Positions 35,135-45,897 of a stretch of DNA of 64,000 nt are shown here, piece after piece. Position 1 is the stretch's first letter. Each line of letters begins with the position of its first letter. Made by a program: the position numbers and the translations under genes. Below the pieces are notes generated by a model. It saw nothing but the letters and a program-made list of their open reading frames with translations. It made no database searches and was not told the DNA's origin. The DNA is from Isosphaera pallida ATCC 43644. Lineage in GTDB: Bacteria; Planctomycetota; Planctomycetia; Isosphaerales; Isosphaeraceae. Location of the stretch: NCBI RefSeq assembly GCF_000186345.1, contig NC_014962.1, forward strand, positions 4,430,450 to 4,494,449, written 5' to 3'.

Positions 35135-35464
35135 TGTGACTCACCGTTGCGAACCTCCCCTTTTCCCGAGGACCGCTCGTCCGGCCAAAGCCAACGATTC
35201 GAGCGTCGAGCGACGGGTTTCCGCACATCCCCACAGCCTAGCGCCCGGCTGAAGTCCATCCGGGCACGGATCCATGACATACCACGAATCGCGTGACGAC
35301 GAGACGGGGACCGCCTCGCGCGCTGCCCCTACTGCGACGCATAGGCCGGGTCCGTCGTGACCGCGGCTTCGACAGCGGCTTGGTAAACCCGCCCTAGAAC
35401 CGTCGCGCGAACCGTCGAAACCCGTTTTCTGCTAGACCACCCGATCGGTGTGGAGAAGAAGTTG
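35135..35464 (+). other. Intergenic, nothing recognised
   Basis: This 330-base spacer lies between two small exported-protein genes. No convincing promoter, hairpin or small gene was found on either strand. Confidence 0.4.
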
Positions 35465-36037
35465 ATGGGTCATCGGAATTCCATTTTTTTGATTGCGCTG
35501 CTCGTGCTGCCGGGAGGCTGCCACCAATCCGACCCATTGGCGCGTTGCGGGATCGAACTGCGACTCCCGCCGACCTGGAGTCCGGTGGAGCCAGATCGGT
35601 TCGTGGTGCCGGGCGATCCTCTGGCCGCCTGGGTGGGTCCGGAGGGAGCTTCACTGAGCCTCTTCACCACCTTGCGCGATCCCGGCGCGACTGCCGAAAC
35701 AATACTGGAGGGAACCGCCAACCTCTGGGCCAACAACCCCGGCTGGTCATTCGAGCGCCAGGTGGTGGACCACGAAACGATCCCTGGCGTCAGCGCTGCC
35801 CGGTTGGAACTCGTCGCGCCGGGAACCGGCGACCAACTCGCTCCCATCGGCCGAGGACGGGCCCTGCCCCGCACCGGCGACAACCGGCCCTTGGTTCCAA
35901 CCCGTCGAGTCGCGTTCATCGTGCCCCGCGACGACTTCACGCTTTACCTGTTCTGGCATCTTCCCGAGACGGCCCGCGAGACGCTGAACGCCGACATCCA
36001 AGCGACGCTCGCGACGCTCTCGCTGGCCCATCGGTAA
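35465..36037 (+). CDS. Hypothetical exported protein, possible lipoprotein
   Basis: A 190-residue protein. The N-terminal FLIALLVLPGGC is a short hydrophobic signal followed by Cys, similar to a lipobox although the -3 position is Pro. The mature part resembles small extracytoplasmic proteins of planctomycetes: LRLPPTWSPVEPDRFVVPGDPLAAW, then GASLSLFTTLRDPG, and a C-terminal strand YLFWHLPE. No catalytic motif was seen. The ATG at 35465 has a GGAG upstream; GTG codons at 35448 and 35450 are less likely starts. It precedes the multiheme cytochrome gene by 75 bases, with a tandem repeat between, so co-transcription is possible. Confidence 0.65.
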   Translation: MGHRNSIFLIALLVLPGGCHQSDPLARCGIELRLPPTWSPVEPDRFVVPGDPLAAWVGPEGASLSLFTTLRDPGATAETILEGTANLWANNPGWSFERQVVDHETIPGVSAARLELVAPGTGDQLAPIGRGRALPRTGDNRPLVPTRRVAFIVPRDDFTLYLFWHLPETARETLNADIQATLATLSLAHR

Positions 36038-36112: not shown

Positions 36113-39100
36113 ATGTCGTTTTCCTCAACCGAGCCGCCTCCGGGCGATTCGATCCCGACGTTCCGCGTCGAACCTCATCCCCCCTTGGTCCGTGCGTCGG
36201 CTTCTGCTCGCGTCAAGCGTCCCTATGTCCCGGCGATTGGTCCCAAACTGCGCGTGTTGCTGCTTGTGGTTCTGGCCGGTGTGGCACTGCTGGGAGCGAA
36301 TAGTGTTTATCTAGTTAGCGTCACGATCCTGAATGCTGTTGTGGGAAGTGGTCATGAAACCTTCTTCTATTACATGATGTTCGCGGCCCACCTGGCCCTG
36401 GGCAGCCTACTCTTCCTACCGTTCGCCGCATTCGCGGGTATTCACCTGGTGACCGCCTGGCGACGCTCCAACAAAGCGGCCGTGCGGTACGGTCTGGCCC
36501 TGTTGGCCGCCTCGCTCGTCATCATCGTCACCGGCTTCATTCTTTGGCGCAACGAACTCTACGAGGTGCGTGATCCCCACACCCGTGAAGTGGCCTACTG
36601 GCTGCATGTGCTGGCCCCTCTGGCGGCGGTAGGTCTCTACGTGGCGCACCGCATGGCGGGACCCCGCATCCAATGGCGCTATGTTCGTCTCTGGGCAGGT
36701 ACGGTGGCCGCCTTTGTGGTGGCCATGAGCTTCCTCCACACTTTAGACCCGCGTCAGTACCGTGTGGTTCAACCCAAGGAGGGACTGGCTTATTTTCACC
36801 CTTCCTCAGCACGCACTGCCACCGGCAACTTCATCCCCGCCGAAACCCTCATGATGGACCACTACTGTCTGGAGTGTCACAAAGACTCCTATGACGGCTG
36901 GTTCCACTCCGCCCACCACTTCAGTTCTTTCAACAACAAGGCCTACCTCTTCAGCGTCCGCGAAACCCGCCAGGTCGCGTTGGAACGCGACGGCAACACC
37001 AAAGCCGCCCGCTTCTGCGCCGGGTGTCACGACCCAGTGCCGTTCTTCTCTGGCGAATTCGATGACCCCAACTACGACGATGTGAACACCAAAAGCAGCC
37101 AGGCAGGGATCACCTGCACCTCCTGCCACGCGATCACCCAGGTTCACTCCACCCGGGGCAACGCCGACTACACTATCGAGGAACCTCAACACTATCCCTT
37201 CGCCTTCAGCGACAACCCGTTCCTCAAGTGGGTCAATCACACCCTGGTCAAAGCCAAGCCAGAAATGCACAAACGCACGTTTCTTAAAGACATCCACAAA
37301 GACTCGAACTTTTGCTCGACTTGCCATAAAGTCCACCTTCCCTTCGCGCTCAACGAATACAAGGACTTCCTTCGAGGACAAAACCACCACGACTCCCACC
37401 TGCTTTCCGGGGTCTCGGGACATGGAGCCCGCAGCTTCTACTACCCCGACAAGGCGATGGGCAAGTGTGCTGATTGTCATATGAATCGCGTCGTTTCCAA
37501 CGATTTCGGAGCACGCGACTACGACGGCGACGGTCAGCGCGAGATCCACAACCACCTGTTTCTCGGGGCCAATACCGGCCTGGCCACCATCCGCGGGCGC
37601 AAGGACATCGCCCGCATTCATGAAAACTACCTCAAAGAGAAGAAAGTCCGCATTGACATTTTCGGACTTCGCGCTGGAGGGGACATCGAGGGCGAACTGC
37701 TCGCTCCGCTTCGCCCAAACATTCCCACCATTGAGCCGGGTGCCTCCTACCTGGTCGAGGTCGTGGTGCGAACCCTAGCGATCGGCCACCACTTCTCCCA
37801 AGGAACCACCGACTCCAACGAAATCTGGGTGGAATTGGTCGCCCGCACCCCCGATGGCCGCGTCATCGGTCATTCCGGCGGCCTGGACGACGCCGGACGG
37901 GTCGATCCCCTGGCGCACTTTATTAATGTTTACATGCTTGACAACCAAGGCAATCGCATCGACCGCCGCAACGCCGGCGATATTTTCACTCCGCTTTACA
38001 ACAAGCAGATTCCACCGGGAGCCAGTCAGGTCGTTCACTTCGCGTTGGACGTGCCTCCCGACCTGAATCAGCCGATCGAACTCGAGGCCAAGGTGCATTA
38101 TCGCAAGTTCGACCGGACGTATCTAGATTACATTTTCGGTCCCGGCAACGGTCCCACACTGCCGATCGTTGAAATGGCCCGCGACCGCGTGGTTCTGACA
38201 GTTCGGGGTGGCCCCGAAGCGGTCAACGAACCGTGTCCGATTCCCGAAGCCAACCACTGGCAGCGCTGGAACGACTACGGAATTGGCTTGTTCCTCTCCG
38301 GAAACGATATGGGCGGCCAAAAAGGCCAACTCAAACAGGCCGAGGAGGCGTTCCAACAGGTCGCCGCCCTAGGCAAAGTCGATGGATACGTCAACCTCGC
38401 GCGAGTGTACATCCGCGAAGGACGTATTCCCGACGCCCGCGCTGCTCTAGCGGCTGCGACCAACCACCCGCAGAAGCCGTATCCCTGGGTCATCACCTGG
38501 CTCAACGCTCAGATCAACGAACGCAACGGCTATCTCGACGAGGCCATCCGCGACTACGAGGCAGTCCTCAACACCCGCGACGAGTCCCGCGGCTTCGACT
38601 TCAGCTGGGATTATGAAGTGAACAACGCATTGGCCACCGCCTTGTACAACCGGGCCCGCCAGGAACCACTCACCGGTGGCCGTCGTCTGGAGTTCCTGGA
38701 GCGTTCGATCGCCCGCTCGCGACACACGCTCAGCCTCGATTCAGAGAATGTCGCGGCCCACTACAACCTCGGCCTAGCCTACTCCGAATGGGTCCGCGCG
38801 ACCGAGCGGGAGTCAGGAAGCGCGCTGTCCACAACGACCCGTTCCGTTCGAGGCGGCTCCAACGAAGCGATCGATACCCAGACGCTTGAAGATCTGATTG
38901 TAGTGGTCAACGACGACAAGGCGACGCTTGAAACCCGTGGCGCGGCCGCGCGGCGGCTGTCCGAAGCGATCCCGGTCTGGCTCAACGGCCCAAGGCCCGA
39001 AGTGGGAAGTCGGATGTCCATCCTTCTGGAAGCTCAAGCGGCCCTCGAAAAAGCCAATGCCCTCGAACCGCTTAGGCTGGAGACCGCGCGGGCACTGGCC

Positions 39101-39307
39101 TCGGTCCACAAAGCGCAACATCACATCTACAAGCCCGATGAAACCGCCGAAGGTCGCGCCATTGCCCGAGCGCGGGCCCGCGACAAGGCGGGCGATCAAA
39201 ACGCTCAATCCATTGTAATCCATCCGCTTCATCATAACTGGGGCCTCCCCACAACTGCTCCAGTTTCCCCCCAACCCGAACCCCCTCTTGTGGGAGACGA
39301 TGAATGA
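36113..39307 (+). CDS. Five-heme cytochrome c with N-terminal membrane domain and C-terminal TPR-like region
   Basis: A 1064-residue protein with three parts. Residues 45-210 contain five membrane helices. The periplasmic core carries five CxxCH heme sites: CLECH (252-256), CAGCH (302-306), CTSCH (335-339), CSTCH (401-405) and CADCH (452-456). After about residue 720 there are helical repeats of TPR type (LKQAEEAFQQVAALGK, VAAHYNLGLAYSEW). It is likely an electron-transfer or redox-sensing protein exchanging electrons at the membrane; the partner is unknown. Its stop overlaps the next gene by ATGA. A 13-bp tandem repeat lies just upstream. Heme attachment would need a cytochrome c maturation system, which is not in the window. 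Confidence 0.9.
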   Translation: MSFSSTEPPPGDSIPTFRVEPHPPLVRASASARVKRPYVPAIGPKLRVLLLVVLAGVALLGANSVYLVSVTILNAVVGSGHETFFYYMMFAAHLALGSLLFLPFAAFAGIHLVTAWRRSNKAAVRYGLALLAASLVIIVTGFILWRNELYEVRDPHTREVAYWLHVLAPLAAVGLYVAHRMAGPRIQWRYVRLWAGTVAAFVVAMSFLHTLDPRQYRVVQPKEGLAYFHPSSARTATGNFIPAETLMMDHYCLECHKDSYDGWFHSAHHFSSFNNKAYLFSVRETRQVALERDGNTKAARFCAGCHDPVPFFSGEFDDPNYDDVNTKSSQAGITCTSCHAITQVHSTRGNADYTIEEPQHYPFAFSDNPFLKWVNHTLVKAKPEMHKRTFLKDIHKDSNFCSTCHKVHLPFALNEYKDFLRGQNHHDSHLLSGVSGHGARSFYYPDKAMGKCADCHMNRVVSNDFGARDYDGDGQREIHNHLFLGANTGLATIRGRKDIARIHENYLKEKKVRIDIFGLRAGGDIEGELLAPLRPNIPTIEPGASYLVEVVVRTLAIGHHFSQGTTDSNEIWVELVARTPDGRVIGHSGGLDDAGRVDPLAHFINVYMLDNQGNRIDRRNAGDIFTPLYNKQIPPGASQVVHFALDVPPDLNQPIELEAKVHYRKFDRTYLDYIFGPGNGPTLPIVEMARDRVVLTVRGGPEAVNEPCPIPEANHWQRWNDYGIGLFLSGNDMGGQKGQLKQAEEAFQQVAALGKVDGYVNLARVYIREGRIPDARAALAAATNHPQKPYPWVITWLNAQINERNGYLDEAIRDYEAVLNTRDESRGFDFSWDYEVNNALATALYNRARQEPLTGGRRLEFLERSIARSRHTLSLDSENVAAHYNLGLAYSEWVRATERESGSALSTTTRSVRGGSNEAIDTQTLEDLIVVVNDDKATLETRGAAARRLSEAIPVWLNGPRPEVGSRMSILLEAQAALEKANALEPLRLETARALASVHKAQHHIYKPDETAEGRAIARARARDKAGDQNAQSIVIHPLHHNWGLPTTAPVSPQPEPPLVGDDE

Positions 39308-41193
39308 CCTCTGCCCTCCCCCGCCTCGGCCGCCTCCACGCCTCCGTGACGGTCTCCGCAGCGTGCGTGGAGCCGGTGTTTCCATTGCGCGGCTGGTTTG
39401 TCTCGACCGCCTTGGCGCTGGGCATGGTCGCGTTGGGCTGCTCGGAACCAACCGCCCCGCCCATCCTCCCCGAGGTAATCGTCCCTACCGCGCCTGAACA
39501 AGTCGCCACCGAGACCCTCCCCAAGGTCAAATTTACCGAGATCACCACCGAATCGGGCGTCACCTTTGTTCACACCAGCGCGATGACCGGCCGCAAGCTG
39601 CTGCCCGAAACGATGGGGTCGGGCGTGGCCGTGTTCGACTTCGACAACGACGGCGACCAAGATCTTCTGTTCATCAATCAAACCTTCTGGCCGGAGGATC
39701 GCCATCCCGACCAGCCCCTTCCCACCCAATGTCTGTACGCCAACGACGGAACGGGACGGTTCACCGACGTCACCGAGTCGGCCGGTCTGGCAGTCTCGGT
39801 CTTCGGTCAAGGGGTCGCGGTGGGTGACTACGACAACGACGGTTACCTTGATGTTTACATCACTACCCTCGAAGGCGGTTTGTTGTTCCGCAACCAAGGC
39901 AACGGCACGTTCGTCAATGTCACGGGAACCGCCGGGGTTGGTTCGGAGGGCTGGATGTCGAGCGCGGCCTTCTTCGACTTTAATAACGATGGGCTGCTTG
40001 ATCTATTTGTGTGTCGTTATCTCGACTGGAATCCGCGTGACGACCTCGAGCAGAATTTCCAACTTGCCGGCACGGGCAAAGGTCGGGCTTATGGCCCTCC
40101 CACCGCGTTCAAGGGGACGCTGTGTCTGCTCTTCCGCAATAATGGGGACGGGACATTTACGGATGTCTCAGAGGCCGCCGGGGTGCAGATCAAAACCCTC
40201 GACGCGCAGGTTCCCTTTGGCAAGGCGCTTGGGGTCGCGCCTTATGACATCGACGGAGATGGCTTCGTTGATTTGGCGGTGGCGAACGACACGGTGCCGA
40301 ATTTCCTGCTGCACAACCGAGGGGACGGCACCTTCGAGGAAATCGGCACCTTGGCGGGGGTGGCTTTCGACCAGCAAGGACGGGCACGCGGGGCGATGGG
40401 GATTGACTGGGCCGACTTCCGCAACGACGGCACCCTGGGTCTGGCGATCGGCAACTTCGCCAACGAGATGACCGCGCTATACGTGTCGGACGACCCGTCC
40501 ACCCTGCAATTCGCCGACCTCGCCAATATTTTCGGCTTGGGCGCTCCGACTCAGCCGCCACTCAAATTCGGTCTCTTCTTCTTTGACTACGATTTGGATG
40601 GGCGTCAAGACCTCTTGATGACGAATGGTCATCTTGAAAACGAGATCTCCAAAGTTCAAGCGAGCGAGACCTATGCTCAATCGGCTCAACTTTACTGGAA
40701 CAGCGGCAAGCCAGGTCGAACGCTGTTCACTCTCGTGAGTTCCGACGTGATTGGTCCGGACCTCTACGAGCCGATTGTCGGGCGGGGCAGCGCCTACGGC
40801 GACTTCGACGGCGACGGCGACCTCGACGTGGTTTTCACCGCCAGCGGCGGCCCGGCTAAGCTCTACCGCAACGAGGGCGGCAACGCCAACCGCTTCCTTC
40901 GGCTTCGGCTGATCGGCGGTCCGGGTTCCAACCGCGACGCCATCGGGGCGCGTCTGGAACTGACCACGACCGACGGCGTCACCCAGCGCCGCCAGCACTT
41001 CCCGGCCAAGGGCTATCTTTCCTCCGTCGAGTTCCCGATCACATTCGGCCTAGGACCCGAAGCCTCGGTTGAGCGTCTGGTCATCCGTTGGCCTTCCGGC
41101 AAAGTCACGTCCTACGACGGCTCAGTTCTGGAGGCCAATCGGGTTCACACGCTCAAGGAGGCCGACGTTTCTCCGAGCACCTCGACCGAATGA
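39304..41193 (+). CDS. CRTAC1-type FG-GAP/VCBS protein with ASPIC/UnbV C-terminus
   Basis: A 629-residue exported protein, coupled by ATGA overlap to the multiheme cytochrome gene. A hydrophobic N-terminal stretch ends in VALGCSEP, a lipoprotein-like signal. Several calcium-binding loops of the FG-GAP/VCBS type follow (FDFDNDGDQDLL, GDYDNDGYLDVY, FDFNNDGLLDLF, YDIDGDGFVDLA, GDFDGDGDLDVV), predicting a seven-bladed propeller. The last ~110 residues match the ASPIC/UnbV module (RNEGGNANRFLRLRLIGG, then AIGARLELTT). This family often sits beside TPR or cytochrome genes in planctomycetes and verrucomicrobia. Its biochemical role is unknown; a periplasmic scaffold or binding protein is inferred. 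Confidence 0.9.
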   Translation: MTSALPRLGRLHASVTVSAACVEPVFPLRGWFVSTALALGMVALGCSEPTAPPILPEVIVPTAPEQVATETLPKVKFTEITTESGVTFVHTSAMTGRKLLPETMGSGVAVFDFDNDGDQDLLFINQTFWPEDRHPDQPLPTQCLYANDGTGRFTDVTESAGLAVSVFGQGVAVGDYDNDGYLDVYITTLEGGLLFRNQGNGTFVNVTGTAGVGSEGWMSSAAFFDFNNDGLLDLFVCRYLDWNPRDDLEQNFQLAGTGKGRAYGPPTAFKGTLCLLFRNNGDGTFTDVSEAAGVQIKTLDAQVPFGKALGVAPYDIDGDGFVDLAVANDTVPNFLLHNRGDGTFEEIGTLAGVAFDQQGRARGAMGIDWADFRNDGTLGLAIGNFANEMTALYVSDDPSTLQFADLANIFGLGAPTQPPLKFGLFFFDYDLDGRQDLLMTNGHLENEISKVQASETYAQSAQLYWNSGKPGRTLFTLVSSDVIGPDLYEPIVGRGSAYGDFDGDGDLDVVFTASGGPAKLYRNEGGNANRFLRLRLIGGPGSNRDAIGARLELTTTDGVTQRRQHFPAKGYLSSVEFPITFGLGPEASVERLVIRWPSGKVTSYDGSVLEANRVHTLKEADVSPSTSTE

Positions 41194-41553: not shown

Positions 41554-43005
41554 TCAGGCGATCACGCCTTGAATTGGTTGACCCTTGCCGTCCTCGGTGA
41601 CGTACACCGGGCGGTCTTCGATGACGAAGCCGTAGTAGGGAGGCAGTCCCATCAGGCTGTAGATGGTGGCGTGCAGGTCGATCATCGAGACCGGATCACG
41701 GACGGTGGTAAAGGGCCGTTCGTCGGCGGTTTCGCCGTAGACGAAGCCTCGCTTGACCCCGCCGCCGAACATGACCACCGAACAGGCCCCGGCGAAGTGG
41801 CGATGCGCTCCGTAGTGCTTGGGTTCGGTGAGGCGGTCGGGTACGACGACTTGATCCTTGACTTGTTCGCCTGGCTTGCCTTCGATGAGCATGTCCCGGG
41901 AGAATTCGGTGGCGATAACCACCAGGGTGCGGTCGAGCAGCTTGCGTTCCTCCAGGTCGCCGATCAGACGGGCAATCGGCCGATCGATCAGGGCCATCAT
42001 TTCGGCGGTGCGGGCGTGTCCGTCCTCGTGGGTATCCCACCCTTGGAACGGCATATACTCGGTCGTCACCTCGATGAACCGGGAACCCGCCTCGATCAAC
42101 CTCCGCGCTAGCAGGCAACCCAGGCCGAAACGCCCAGTGTTGTAGGCTTCATAAGATTCACGTGGTTCGAGCGATAAGTCGAACGCCTTGGCCGCGGGTG
42201 AATCCATCAGGGCATAAGCGGCGTCGATCCGTTTGAGATAATCCTCGCCGACCTGGGCGGCGTCGGCCCCGGCCGCGCGAGCGCGGAGGGCTTGAAGCCG
42301 ATGCAATCGTTCCAGACGTTCGCGGAACCGCCGCCGCGAGACTCCAGGCGGTGGTTGAACCGCCGAAACCGCCTCGGCTGGTTGGGGTACAAAGAACGGG
42401 CCAAAGTCGTCGCCCAGGAAGCCGGCGGTGTGGAACGCCTTGACCTCAAAATCCTCAGCGGAGATGTTAAACCGTTGCCCAATGTCCACAAATGCAGGCG
42501 TTCCCTGCTGGACTGGTCCCCGCGCGCGGGCAATCCAGGCACCCAGGTGGGGGTTGTGAATCGTTTGAGGCGGCACGTAGCCGGTGTGGAAGTGAAATTG
42601 GTGCCGCGAGTGCAGAATATGGCCGAGGTTGGCTGGCTGGAACGTCTTGATCAGGGTTCCCAAGTGCATCACCCGAGCGCACTCAGGAAGCCCTTCGGAG
42701 ATGCTCACGCCGTCGAGACTGGTGGGAATGGAGCGGAAGGTCGAACCGACCGCCTGGGGTTCCATACCCGGCTCGAACGGGGTGTAGACCTTGGGATCCC
42801 AGGTTTCGGTATGGCACTGGCCGCCCGCCATCCAAAGCAAAATCATCTGATCGGCCTTGGCCGGGATCAGCGTCCCGGTCGGCTCGGCGGAGGCCGACCG
42901 CAAACCCCATCCCAAAGGAGGCGTCACGCCCAGCGCAGCGGTGGCCGCGGCGGTCTTGAGGAACCGACGGCGATCGATCCCGTCACCTTCGAGGAAATTG
43001 GTCAT
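41554..43005 (-). CDS. DUF1501 protein with Tat signal
   Basis: A 483-residue exported protein. The N-terminal DRRRFLKTAAATAALGVTPP (about 11-30) is a twin-arginine signal, expected for this family of alkaline-phosphatase-superfamily-like proteins in planctomycetes. The body contains ILLWMAGGQCHTETWDPK, a QFHFHTGYVPP block, FQGWDTHEDGHARTAEMM and a C-terminal MIDLHATIYSLMGLPP. DUF1501 genes are nearly always paired with a DUF1549/DUF1553 gene, as here; the partner ends 59 bases upstream. The reaction is unknown. GGAG lies 9 bases before the ATG. Confidence 0.93.
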   Translation of the reverse strand: MTNFLEGDGIDRRRFLKTAAATAALGVTPPLGWGLRSASAEPTGTLIPAKADQMILLWMAGGQCHTETWDPKVYTPFEPGMEPQAVGSTFRSIPTSLDGVSISEGLPECARVMHLGTLIKTFQPANLGHILHSRHQFHFHTGYVPPQTIHNPHLGAWIARARGPVQQGTPAFVDIGQRFNISAEDFEVKAFHTAGFLGDDFGPFFVPQPAEAVSAVQPPPGVSRRRFRERLERLHRLQALRARAAGADAAQVGEDYLKRIDAAYALMDSPAAKAFDLSLEPRESYEAYNTGRFGLGCLLARRLIEAGSRFIEVTTEYMPFQGWDTHEDGHARTAEMMALIDRPIARLIGDLEERKLLDRTLVVIATEFSRDMLIEGKPGEQVKDQVVVPDRLTEPKHYGAHRHFAGACSVVMFGGGVKRGFVYGETADERPFTTVRDPVSMIDLHATIYSLMGLPPYYGFVIEDRPVYVTEDGKGQPIQGVIA

Positions 43006-43064
43006 CTGTGGGGTCTCCGTTGCGATCCGTCACTCAATTCGGTCAATTCGGTGATGTTGTTCCG

Positions 43065-44735
43065 TCACGGGAGATATTGGAACTCGGGATGGTTGACGAT
43101 CAACCAAAGCAGATCCTCCAACCCTTCGCGGCGCTGGTCGGCCTCGCCCGCGCCTGGCGGCACAAGCAAGTCGGCGAGTTCGGCGGTTTCCTCAGCGGTG
43201 GGCATGCGGGCGAAGCCGCGAAGGAATAGGGTCTCGACCACCTTGGCCGAGTCGGACTCGCGGCCCAGGTCGGAGTCCAGCAAGGTTTTGGCCCCTTGGG
43301 AGATCAGGTCGGCGAGTTCCCGACCATTGACCGCCTCCAGGGCTTGCAACAAGGTGGCCTCCTCTTGGCGACGGCTGACGACCTGTTCACGGTTGGGTCG
43401 TCCGAAAGTCTCGGCAAACAGGCCAGGTTTGCGAATCCGCCACGCCCGAATTGGGTCCCCCTCCAAGGTCAGTCGGAATGTCTCGGCAATCCGGGGCCAG
43501 TATCCGGTCAAGCTGGCCAGAGCGTCGAGGAATTGTTCAACGGTCAAACGCCTTGGGGCGGGATCGACCCGCTCGCCAGCCTCGTCGCGCGACTGAGGAG
43601 TCACGGCGCGACGGTATTCGGTGGAGGTCACGATCAGACGGGTCGTTCGAAGCAGATCATAGTCGTGACGGATCAAGTCGTCGGCCAACCAGGCGTGGAG
43701 CTCGTCGTAAAACGACTCCCCCATCTCATCCAGGGAGAAGGCCAAAGGGCGTCCCAGGTAGCGTTCCCACAACCGGTTGACGATCACCCGCGCGAAACGC
43801 TGGTTGCGGGGCCGCGTTACCATGTCGGCCACGGCGCGGCGACGGGTAGCGAGATCGGCATCGGCGGCGACTTCGCCCAGACCTTCGTATAAAAAGCGTG
43901 GAGCCACCACGATGCCGGTAGGCTGTTCGCAGCGGGCCATTTCCAAGGGCCCCTCGGAGAAAAAAGCGGCCAGACCGTAGGCATCCTTGAGTTTCCAGTC
44001 GGTGGTGAATCCATCATGACACGAGGCGCATTTAATCGAGGTGGCCAGAAAAATCTGGGCCACGTTCTGAGCCGCTTGAACTTCGGGACGTTGACTCAGG
44101 TTCACCCGCCCTCGCCAGTTGACGCCCTTGAGAAAGCCGATCGGTCCCTGTTGGCCCGGATTGAGTAGCTCATGCACCATCTGGTCATATGGCTTGTTTT
44201 CAAGCAGTGCCTGGTAGAGCCAGGGAGTGATCGGAGCGCGCAAACCATCGATGGCGGTTTGTTCGTCGTTGCGGAGCAGGTCGCTCCAAAAGGTCATGTT
44301 GTGTTCGGCGTACCCTCGACGGTTGGCCAACAGACGCTCGACGGCGCGGGCCACCTTATCGTCTAGGGGAGCCGGGTCGTTCTCGAAGTCGGCGATCTCC
44401 TCAGGGGTTGGTGGCAAGCCGATCAAGTCCAAACTCAAACGTCGGAGCAACCGCCCATCGGTCAACGGGGGACCGGGCGGCGGGGTCAGCCCACTTCCTT
44501 GGGCGCGTCCAGCCCGCAACGCTGCGTCGATGGGATGTTCACCGGGGAGTGTTTCGGGGGCGGGCACGACCGGCAGCGTTGCCGCCTCCGCCCGTTGACG
44601 AGCCCGAAAGTCATCGGCTGCCGCGCCAGAAGTCTGCTCCTGGGCGCGAACCTCCCAACCCACTGCCCCTCCCGTCAAGGTCGACCAGCCAATCAGTACC
44701 GACAGCGCCCACGTCGCTTCGGAACGAATCATCAT
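43065..44735 (-). CDS. DUF1549/DUF1553 protein with one CxxCH motif
   Basis: A 556-residue exported protein. An N-terminal hydrophobic segment (WALSVLIGWSTLTGGAVGW) ends near RAQ. DUF1549 is marked by LLRRLSLDLIGLPPTPEEIADF and YAEHNMTFWSDLLRN. DUF1553 follows (RVIVNRLWERYLGRPL, then TRLIVTSTEYR) up to the end. A single CASCH motif near the centre (KCASCHDG) suggests heme or metal binding. GAGGGAG precedes the ATG pair at 44735/44732; in-frame codons upstream to 44879 are discounted. It forms an operon with the DUF1501 gene downstream. The family is abundant in planctomycetes, and its activity is not known. Confidence 0.92.
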   Translation of the reverse strand: MMIRSEATWALSVLIGWSTLTGGAVGWEVRAQEQTSGAAADDFRARQRAEAATLPVVPAPETLPGEHPIDAALRAGRAQGSGLTPPPGPPLTDGRLLRRLSLDLIGLPPTPEEIADFENDPAPLDDKVARAVERLLANRRGYAEHNMTFWSDLLRNDEQTAIDGLRAPITPWLYQALLENKPYDQMVHELLNPGQQGPIGFLKGVNWRGRVNLSQRPEVQAAQNVAQIFLATSIKCASCHDGFTTDWKLKDAYGLAAFFSEGPLEMARCEQPTGIVVAPRFLYEGLGEVAADADLATRRRAVADMVTRPRNQRFARVIVNRLWERYLGRPLAFSLDEMGESFYDELHAWLADDLIRHDYDLLRTTRLIVTSTEYRRAVTPQSRDEAGERVDPAPRRLTVEQFLDALASLTGYWPRIAETFRLTLEGDPIRAWRIRKPGLFAETFGRPNREQVVSRRQEEATLLQALEAVNGRELADLISQGAKTLLDSDLGRESDSAKVVETLFLRGFARMPTAEETAELADLLVPPGAGEADQRREGLEDLLWLIVNHPEFQYLP

Positions 44736-45897
44736 GCGGACTCCCTCACCACGTCGTTTGAACACGGCACCGCCCTGGCGCGAGTCGGTTGAGTTCGCCA
44801 ACCGATTCTCCAGGACGGCACGAGTCGGGGTCGTTCCAGACAACGCGACTCTCTTCAGTAAGTAAAGTACGTTTAACAATTTAACAAGAATCGCACATGG
44901 CGCTCACGAACGCCAGGGGTGGCAACCCGTTGCGGAGTGAAAAGATGGCGACGAGATTGAATTGACCAGATGCGGGATTCCGTCCAATGTTTGGATTCGT
45001 CCCGTGGCAAGCGTGGACCAGCGGTGGACGGGTTGGAAGAGACTTTTGCGGCAAAATGGGAATTTTTTCCTTCGATCACCCTGATTCTCTGGGTACAATA
45101 GGCTTCGGAGTCAACGAGTGTCGAATTCGCCTTGCTCGTCGAGGCGGGTGACCGACTCGTGGCGTTTGTGTTTTTGAATTTCGTTTTTTGCCGGAGTCTG
45201 GTCCGACTGGTTTCTCATCGCGTGGAGTGATTTGTCGAGTCGATTGTTCGGTTGACAGAAGGAATAAGGATGTCCAACTCGTTTCCCCGCACTCGCGTCG
45301 CCTTGGCTCCCCCGGAGGAACGGCCAAGCGGGACCGCGTGGAAATTCAGACTTCCTCTCTTGCCAAGCGAGTTGGCAGGGAAATCGCCAGGAAGGGCGGT
45401 CAGTGCCGGATTGCTTGCGACCCGACGGGCTTTCTTCGTGATGGGCGCGTGTCCATCCTTGCGGGATGACATGGCGTCGCAACCGGTTGGCGAGGATCGC
45501 CAAGGGTTGAGCGCCGCCGCCACGAAGCGACTTCGTGTCGCTCGAGGGGTCGGCTATGGGTTTTGCGGCTCGTTGCGACCTCGTCTCGCCCCGTGATCGA
45601 CCGCCTAGTTTGGTCTCCGGCCTGCACCGTTGTTGTCCTTTAGTCCCCGCCGTTCCGTCCGCGACGGTCCAAGCGGTTCCGGCTTCGTTCGATTGAGCGA
45701 ACTGTCCGGCTGCGTCTTGAGCGTCCCAAGCCCGAGACCCGTGGTTCCACCGGTTGTGCCTCCTCCGCCCGATCCTATTGATCAAAGCGCGACGGATGGC
45801 TCGCTTGCCTGATCCAAGCCGGTTGGTCGCCGCTGAATTGGGCCCGCCTGGAACGTCGAATGGATGACGAGACGGCGATGGGAAAGGAAACCCCACG
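44736..45897. other. 1.16 kb spacer with a possible promoter and several small hairpins
   Basis: This divergent region is far larger than its neighbours. On the plus strand, TTCGAT and TACAAT (45094-45099), 17 bases apart, form a weak promoter. Perfect short hairpins occur at 45361-45377 (TGCCAA/TTGGCA), 45489-45501 (GGCGA/TCGCC) and 45521-45537 (CACGAAG/CTTCGTG); CCGTC/GACGG and GTTCG/CGAAC pairs lie further on. On the minus strand, an AT-rich TTGTTA at 44887-44882 may help drive the DUF1549 gene. A doubtful 108-codon frame (45270-45596) has a fair ribosome binding site but an unconvincing composition. I recognise no known RNA; RNase P, tmRNA and 6S signatures were not seen. Confidence 0.4.

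Follow-up and report, generated by a model that had tools for sequence, protein, structure and literature searches.

We analysed a 64,000-nucleotide stretch of the Isosphaera pallida ATCC 43644 genome (contig NC_014962.1, positions 4,430,450 to 4,494,449), hereafter the window. Our subject is a pair of adjoining genes, encoding a multiheme cytochrome and a CRTAC1-type propeller protein (Table 1). The original prediction described the cytochrome as a single chain joining five membrane helices, five CxxCH motifs and tetratricopeptide repeats (TPR). The open reading frame (ORF), a structural model and Pfam matches all agree with this. The predicted ATGA overlap between the cytochrome stop codon and the start of the ASPIC/UnbV gene is also present. 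Isosphaera-type bacteria and many relatives carry this neighbouring gene pair. From its sequence, the cytochrome probably carries electrons between the quinone pool and the compartment beyond the inner membrane.

Table 1. Features of the gene pair and its upstream neighbour, in window coordinates.
Feature	Position	Strand	Basis
Predicted b/c cytochrome with TPR tail, 1064 aa	36113..39307	+	ORF, Pfam, structure model
Five-helix membrane domain, residues 44-210	36242..36742	+	model, alignments
Pentaheme c-type module and beta-sandwich, residues 244-695	36842..38197	+	5ze8 fold and profile
TPR tail, residues 711-1026	38243..39190	+	Pfam, TPR structure matches
ATGA stop/start overlap of cytochrome and propeller genes	39304..39307	+	
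CRTAC1-type FG-GAP/ASPIC propeller, 629 aa, N-terminal lipoprotein-like signal ending VALGC	39304..41193	+	
Putative lipoprotein, 195 aa, lineage-limited neighbour, candidate unit member only	35450..36037	+	

The predicted model places long helices at residues 44-77, 84-115, 121-144, 155-181 and 188-210. Two histidines in helix 2 (H93 and H111) and two in helix 4 (H165 and H179) are invariant in all 20 close homologues aligned. A more diverged alignment comprised the window domain and 24 others, which are 14-30% identical to it. Only seven columns are invariant across these 25 domains: H93, G97, H111, G127, G141, H165 and H179. Both G127 and G141 sit in helix 3. Because the four helix 2 and 4 histidines are invariant at such divergence, we read them as marking a quinone-reactive b-type cytochrome with two hemes, in which they would be the presumed ligands of both. 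All four are present in 39 of 47 remote sequences fetched; the eight exceptions are three mis-extracted fragments, one ORF without the region and four soluble forms. DUF4405, which we take to be a member of a two-heme cytochrome clan, was matched by 11 of 25 relatives (best E 1.4e-5), and Ni_hydr_CYTB by eight (best E 1.7e-4). The 14-residue spacing of H165 and H179, and of the two helix 3 glycines, is one that we presume to resemble bc1 cytochrome b. Membrane electron flow, already part of the original prediction, is thus more strongly indicated than was then known. Weak Pfam matches of the domain to CD20 and EBP were dropped; both fell under the cut-offs and the four-histidine pattern accounts for the conservation. 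When the PDB was searched with a profile of the membrane domain, no solved template came up, only two weak and differently described matches (8zeh, E 0.0014; 4yqy, E 0.42). Given the odd number of helices and the periplasmic c-type part, the N-terminus is therefore predicted to lie inside. In this orientation, H93 and H165 would be 9-10 residues from the outer helix ends, with H111 and H179 near the inner ends.

The membrane domain is followed by the motifs CLECH, CAGCH, CTSCH, CSTCH and CADCH, whose histidines are residues 256, 306, 339, 405 and 456. Pfam Cytochrome_C554 matches above its cut-off (E 5.4e-6). Thermochromatium tepidum c552 (5ze8) superposes on model residues 244-695 with Z 14.2 and a root-mean-square deviation of 4.3 over 346 of 385 residues. 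This match emerged only on realignment, a plain Foldseek search of the whole cytochrome being swamped by TPR proteins. The 5ze8 profile match has E 2.4e-14, and cytochrome c554 (1bvb) and other multiheme proteins rank next. NCBIfam ExtKL (NF040886) was matched by 24 of 28 alignment members at E <= 0.01 (best 8.6e-20). We conclude that the cytochrome is a relative within the wider c552/ExtKL fold family and not an ExtKL equivalog. According to an excerpt of PMC11976967, c552 is related to ExtKL and Gsu2801, all of them pentaheme cytochromes that carry an immunoglobulin (Ig)-like domain. Hence, the beta-sandwich of the window protein is probably that Ig-like domain.

The homologues fall into four tiers. 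Tier I proteins have about 930-1080 residues and are 45-65% identical, while those of tier II have about 900 and are 33-40% identical. Tier III proteins (about 700 residues, ~30% identical) have no TPR tail, and their first heme motif is CX4CH, as in all seven sequences read. Tier IV proteins are soluble, with about 490 residues and five CxxCH motifs. Four such pentaheme relatives (L089-L092, in families f45 and f76) have neither the membrane domain nor the partner. In tier II, five c-heme motifs are found in 26 of the 29 sequences fetched, the other three being mis-extracted fragments.

Only four histidines outside the motifs are kept through tiers I-III, at residues 268, 386, 481 and 559. 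With five c hemes to serve, perhaps one site is open. Such a site would suit a terminal reductase, in which quinol electrons reach a substrate-binding c heme and reduce a small oxyanion or similar, the propeller binding or delivering substrate. ExtKL is tied to selenite reduction in an excerpt of PMC5877670, which favours the same idea. However, other histidines (395, 437, 425 and 408) are invariant or nearly so in tier I and could fill every site, and no catalytic residue pattern was identified. The motif GHxxxxGT (H559-T565; window 37787-37822 covers residues 559-570) aligns with PHAMPTGA in c552 and, in the multiheme selenoprotein MccSep, with GHSIPDG and the selenocysteine after it. The histidine is common to all three but the MccSep selenocysteine position is threonine here. 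We consider a reductase unlikely.

Pfam TPR families match the C-terminal part of the cytochrome in every one of the 20 close-homologue alignment members. TPR structures superpose on residues ~711-1014; within this region, residues ~893-1000 are an insertion common to Isosphaeraceae.

The second gene had been predicted to encode a calcium-propeller ASPIC/UnbV protein, and this identification holds. FG-GAP_3 (E 1.1e-40) and UnbV_ASPIC (E 4e-18) both match over their cut-offs. The partner model (predicted local distance difference test score, pLDDT, 84.1; predicted template modelling score 0.85) has the CRTAC1 fold, with Foldseek E 4.1e-31 and Z 40.1 over 464 aligned residues. Isosphaeraceae partners have an N-terminus ending in a lipobox-like cysteine, and those of other lineages one N-terminal helix. 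Because of these features the propeller would sit on the periplasmic face. In most partners from outside Isosphaeraceae, a conserved acidic D-D-x-I-I/V-G-x-A stretch precedes the membrane helix (for example L036:11024-12868:+ and L188:8834-10681:+).

A cytochrome match occurs in 97 of the 294 genomes of the phylum sample and in 39 of the 45 of the family sample. A scan of named records gave at least 80 loci; most come from metagenome bins labelled Planctomycetota or Verrucomicrobiota and some from isolates, and some of the labels are apparently misassigned. The three samples overlap in organisms and their counts are not additive. The nearest named homologues in trees are from Isosphaeraceae, including Singulisphaera acidiphila and Paludisphaera soli; no relatives were found on viral contigs. 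Of the 46 tier I genomes in the phylum sample, 43 (27/29, 15/16 and the window) have the partner on the cytochrome strand, downstream of it. G150 and G190 are scored as paired, since their cytochrome gene is split between contigs and its 3' part is followed by the partner (L105 and L106). The exceptions are G024 and G087, with a partner orthologue elsewhere in the genome (50 and 48% identical), and G251, with an ASPIC gene about 3.7 kb off. For tiers II and III, 29 and 14 loci were fetched, a subset of the phylum-sample matches. The partner is downstream in 18 of the 29 and in all 14, respectively, and in none of four tier IV loci. Among the 80 named loci listed, the partner is within 1200 bases in 65, five leave no space for one and ten are unpaired. 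In three of the unpaired loci an ASPIC match, weak in one case, occurs at another position. Together with 11 of 11 family loci, this gives 76 of 91 paired.

Gene overlap varies more than gene order. Overlaps of 1-4 bases (ATG(A) or TAATG) occur in 16 of 22 Isosphaeraceae entries, which were drawn from two collections and include several genomes twice. Hence, the overlap is not universal. A 4-base overlap is seen in eight of 29 more distant loci and most others have gaps of 5-152 bases; within this set the L010 reading had a broken frame, and L021 and L023 have no adjoining partner.

The two proteins also share a history. In a tree of 65 ASPIC proteins, a single branch sets off the tier I partners (support 100) and another the tier III partners (99); tier II partners group together (97). 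All partners are separate from paralogues in their own and other genomes, and the unlinked G024 and G087 genes nest inside the tier I partners. One protein, L058, carries a non-partner label because its match begins too far inside the cytochrome end; its position and place in the tree are those of a partner. The cytochrome tree contains the same three groups. Both trees are quick reconstructions rooted at the midpoint, and the long branches that join tiers III and IV drew a program warning. We conclude that the pair is a conserved unit with parallel descent. Homologues of the two genes are mostly adjacent and not mostly apart, so this refuting condition of the original prediction fails. The propeller may be the large scaffold envisaged earlier, or a substrate-binding or regulatory subunit. 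The remote tier pairs the propeller with a ~700-residue cytochrome that has no TPR tail, so we rejected the tail as the tie between the two proteins.

The interpretation that we favour is a b/c cytochrome that oxidises quinol at the membrane, served by a dedicated CRTAC1-type subunit that is itself membrane-anchored; we assign it a probability of roughly 0.6. Briefly, the cytochrome would be an inner-membrane, quinone-linked electron carrier. Two b hemes would be stacked across the membrane, held by H93 and H165 towards the periplasmic face and by H111 and H179 towards the cytoplasmic one. Oxidation of quinol at the b hemes would send electrons to the c552/ExtKL-type pentaheme module in the periplasm, which would hand them to a periplasmic acceptor. 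The propeller, anchored to the same membrane face as a lipoprotein in Isosphaeraceae and by one N-terminal helix elsewhere, may contact the cytochrome as its dedicated partner; its most likely task would be to dock the acceptor or to shape the complex.

The sequence carries no direction. Electrons might instead pass from a periplasmic donor, perhaps propeller-bound, through the c hemes and b hemes to the quinone pool. Across 21 neighbourhoods we found no third gene, dehydrogenase or other, kept beside the pair across lineages, which speaks against such reverse flow and makes it quite unlikely. ORF picking in these neighbourhoods overlooked the partner at several loci, which were recovered in a later locus reading. 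The putative lipoprotein gene lies 75 nt 5' of the cytochrome and recurs there in 13 of 22 Isosphaeraceae entries; Pfam and NCBIfam searches with its product gave no match. On the opposite strand (window 41554-44879, -), DUF1501 is found near the pair in six of the 21 neighbourhoods and PSCyt2/PSD1 in five.

Several observations weigh against quinol oxidation by a dedicated two-protein unit. The window protein's own membrane domain has no cytochrome b family match over the cut-off. The cytochrome model is middling (pLDDT 74.2, with residues 381-444, inside the heme module, below 50) and was built without hemes. The ExtKL score of the window protein, 15.5 bits, is far under the 250-bit equivalog cut-off. 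In family f61 the cytochrome has no adjoining partner in any of ten fetched loci (L059, L063, L065, L066, L107, L110, L111, L112, L114 and L115), some of which are at contig ends; 18 of 19 tier II loci outside f61 are paired. The four membrane histidines are kept in f61 where covered, and no replacement partner was recognised among the downstream ORFs. The partner is therefore not obligatory for the cytochrome. The original prediction is supported in part, for the conserved unit and membrane electron flow, with the complex of the two proteins a candidate. Because f61 groups inside the membrane forms in the cytochrome tree, it has probably lost the partner, which is the simplest reading. Finally, I. 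pallida also encodes a bc1-type cytochrome b and its genome gives four COX1 matches, so the pair is not needed merely to link quinol to oxygen.

For the same reason, a specialised rather than basic role is likely, and we rejected substitution for a missing complex III in this genome. Its other quinol- and oxygen-handling genes could suit a redox sensor or assembly factor, in which the TPR tail and propeller, both protein-binding folds, serve protein contacts and not respiration. We regard this as very improbable, given that conservation is strict at all seven presumed heme sites and the TPR tail is dispensable. A heme-copper oxidase subunit is encoded by 82 of 83 genomes with the membrane form and by 144 of 211 others (Fisher p 2.9e-10, kinship ignored). 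The 83 genomes leave out three weak or fragmentary matches (G003, G211 and G268) and eleven soluble-tier matches, assigned by match range and family code, with four of the eleven loci read. The association suits an aerobic setting without naming the acceptor, but it is confounded by descent.

The pair differs from known systems in several ways. Like c552 and the ExtKL-Gsu2801 pentaheme family, the cytochrome has five c hemes and then a beta-sandwich. Unlike it, 5ze8, at 435 residues, lacks both a two-heme b domain at its N-terminus and the TPR tail. Selenocysteine is reported in ExtKL (PMC5877670, in part), whereas the window protein has threonine at the corresponding site of the related MccSep. 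CbcL, MtrH and MtoC are likewise single chains that join a multiheme c portion to a membrane portion with two b hemes, the latter trading electrons with quinone. According to an extract of PMC6295460, the c part of CbcL is its N-terminal half and six helices form its C-terminal half, the b part being HydC/FdnI-like. The order is reversed here, with the b part first, five helices and a c552-type pentaheme module. The partner shares its fold, FG-GAP and UnbV_ASPIC domains with CRTAC1 and bacterial ASPIC-UnbV proteins. In contrast, the partners form separate clades tied to the cytochrome and are membrane-anchored, by lipoprotein signal or one helix. CRTAC1/ASPIC genes are numerous, with up to 20 matches per genome and several matches per gene; around the four other ASPIC matches in the I. 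pallida genome, every listed ORF has zero CxxCH motifs. In non-anammox bacteria, a CRTAC1 family gene flanks putative multi-subunit redox complex genes in hydrazine synthase (HZS)-like alpha/beta-gamma clusters, as described in an extract of PMC12758564. The likeness is one of gene context, and the cytochromes of those clusters are hydrazine-synthase homologues.

Among the titles and opening abstracts of the open-licence literature searched, we found no description of this pair; nor did that literature yield an assigned function for bacterial CRTAC1/ASPIC proteins. Tentatively, Planctomycetota and Verrucomicrobiota may possess a hitherto undescribed two-subunit respiratory complex, in which a quinol-oxidising b2c5 cytochrome bears a CRTAC1-capped pentaheme head and the propeller selects the acceptor. 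One CRTAC1 clade would then be respiratory subunits. A b domain first and a c552-type pentaheme head second is a further architecture beside those known for single-chain carriers of electrons from quinone to periplasm. Family f61 offers a natural test case for cytochrome function without the partner. A strictly co-inherited cytochrome partner gives one set of CRTAC1/ASPIC proteins a concrete, testable role.

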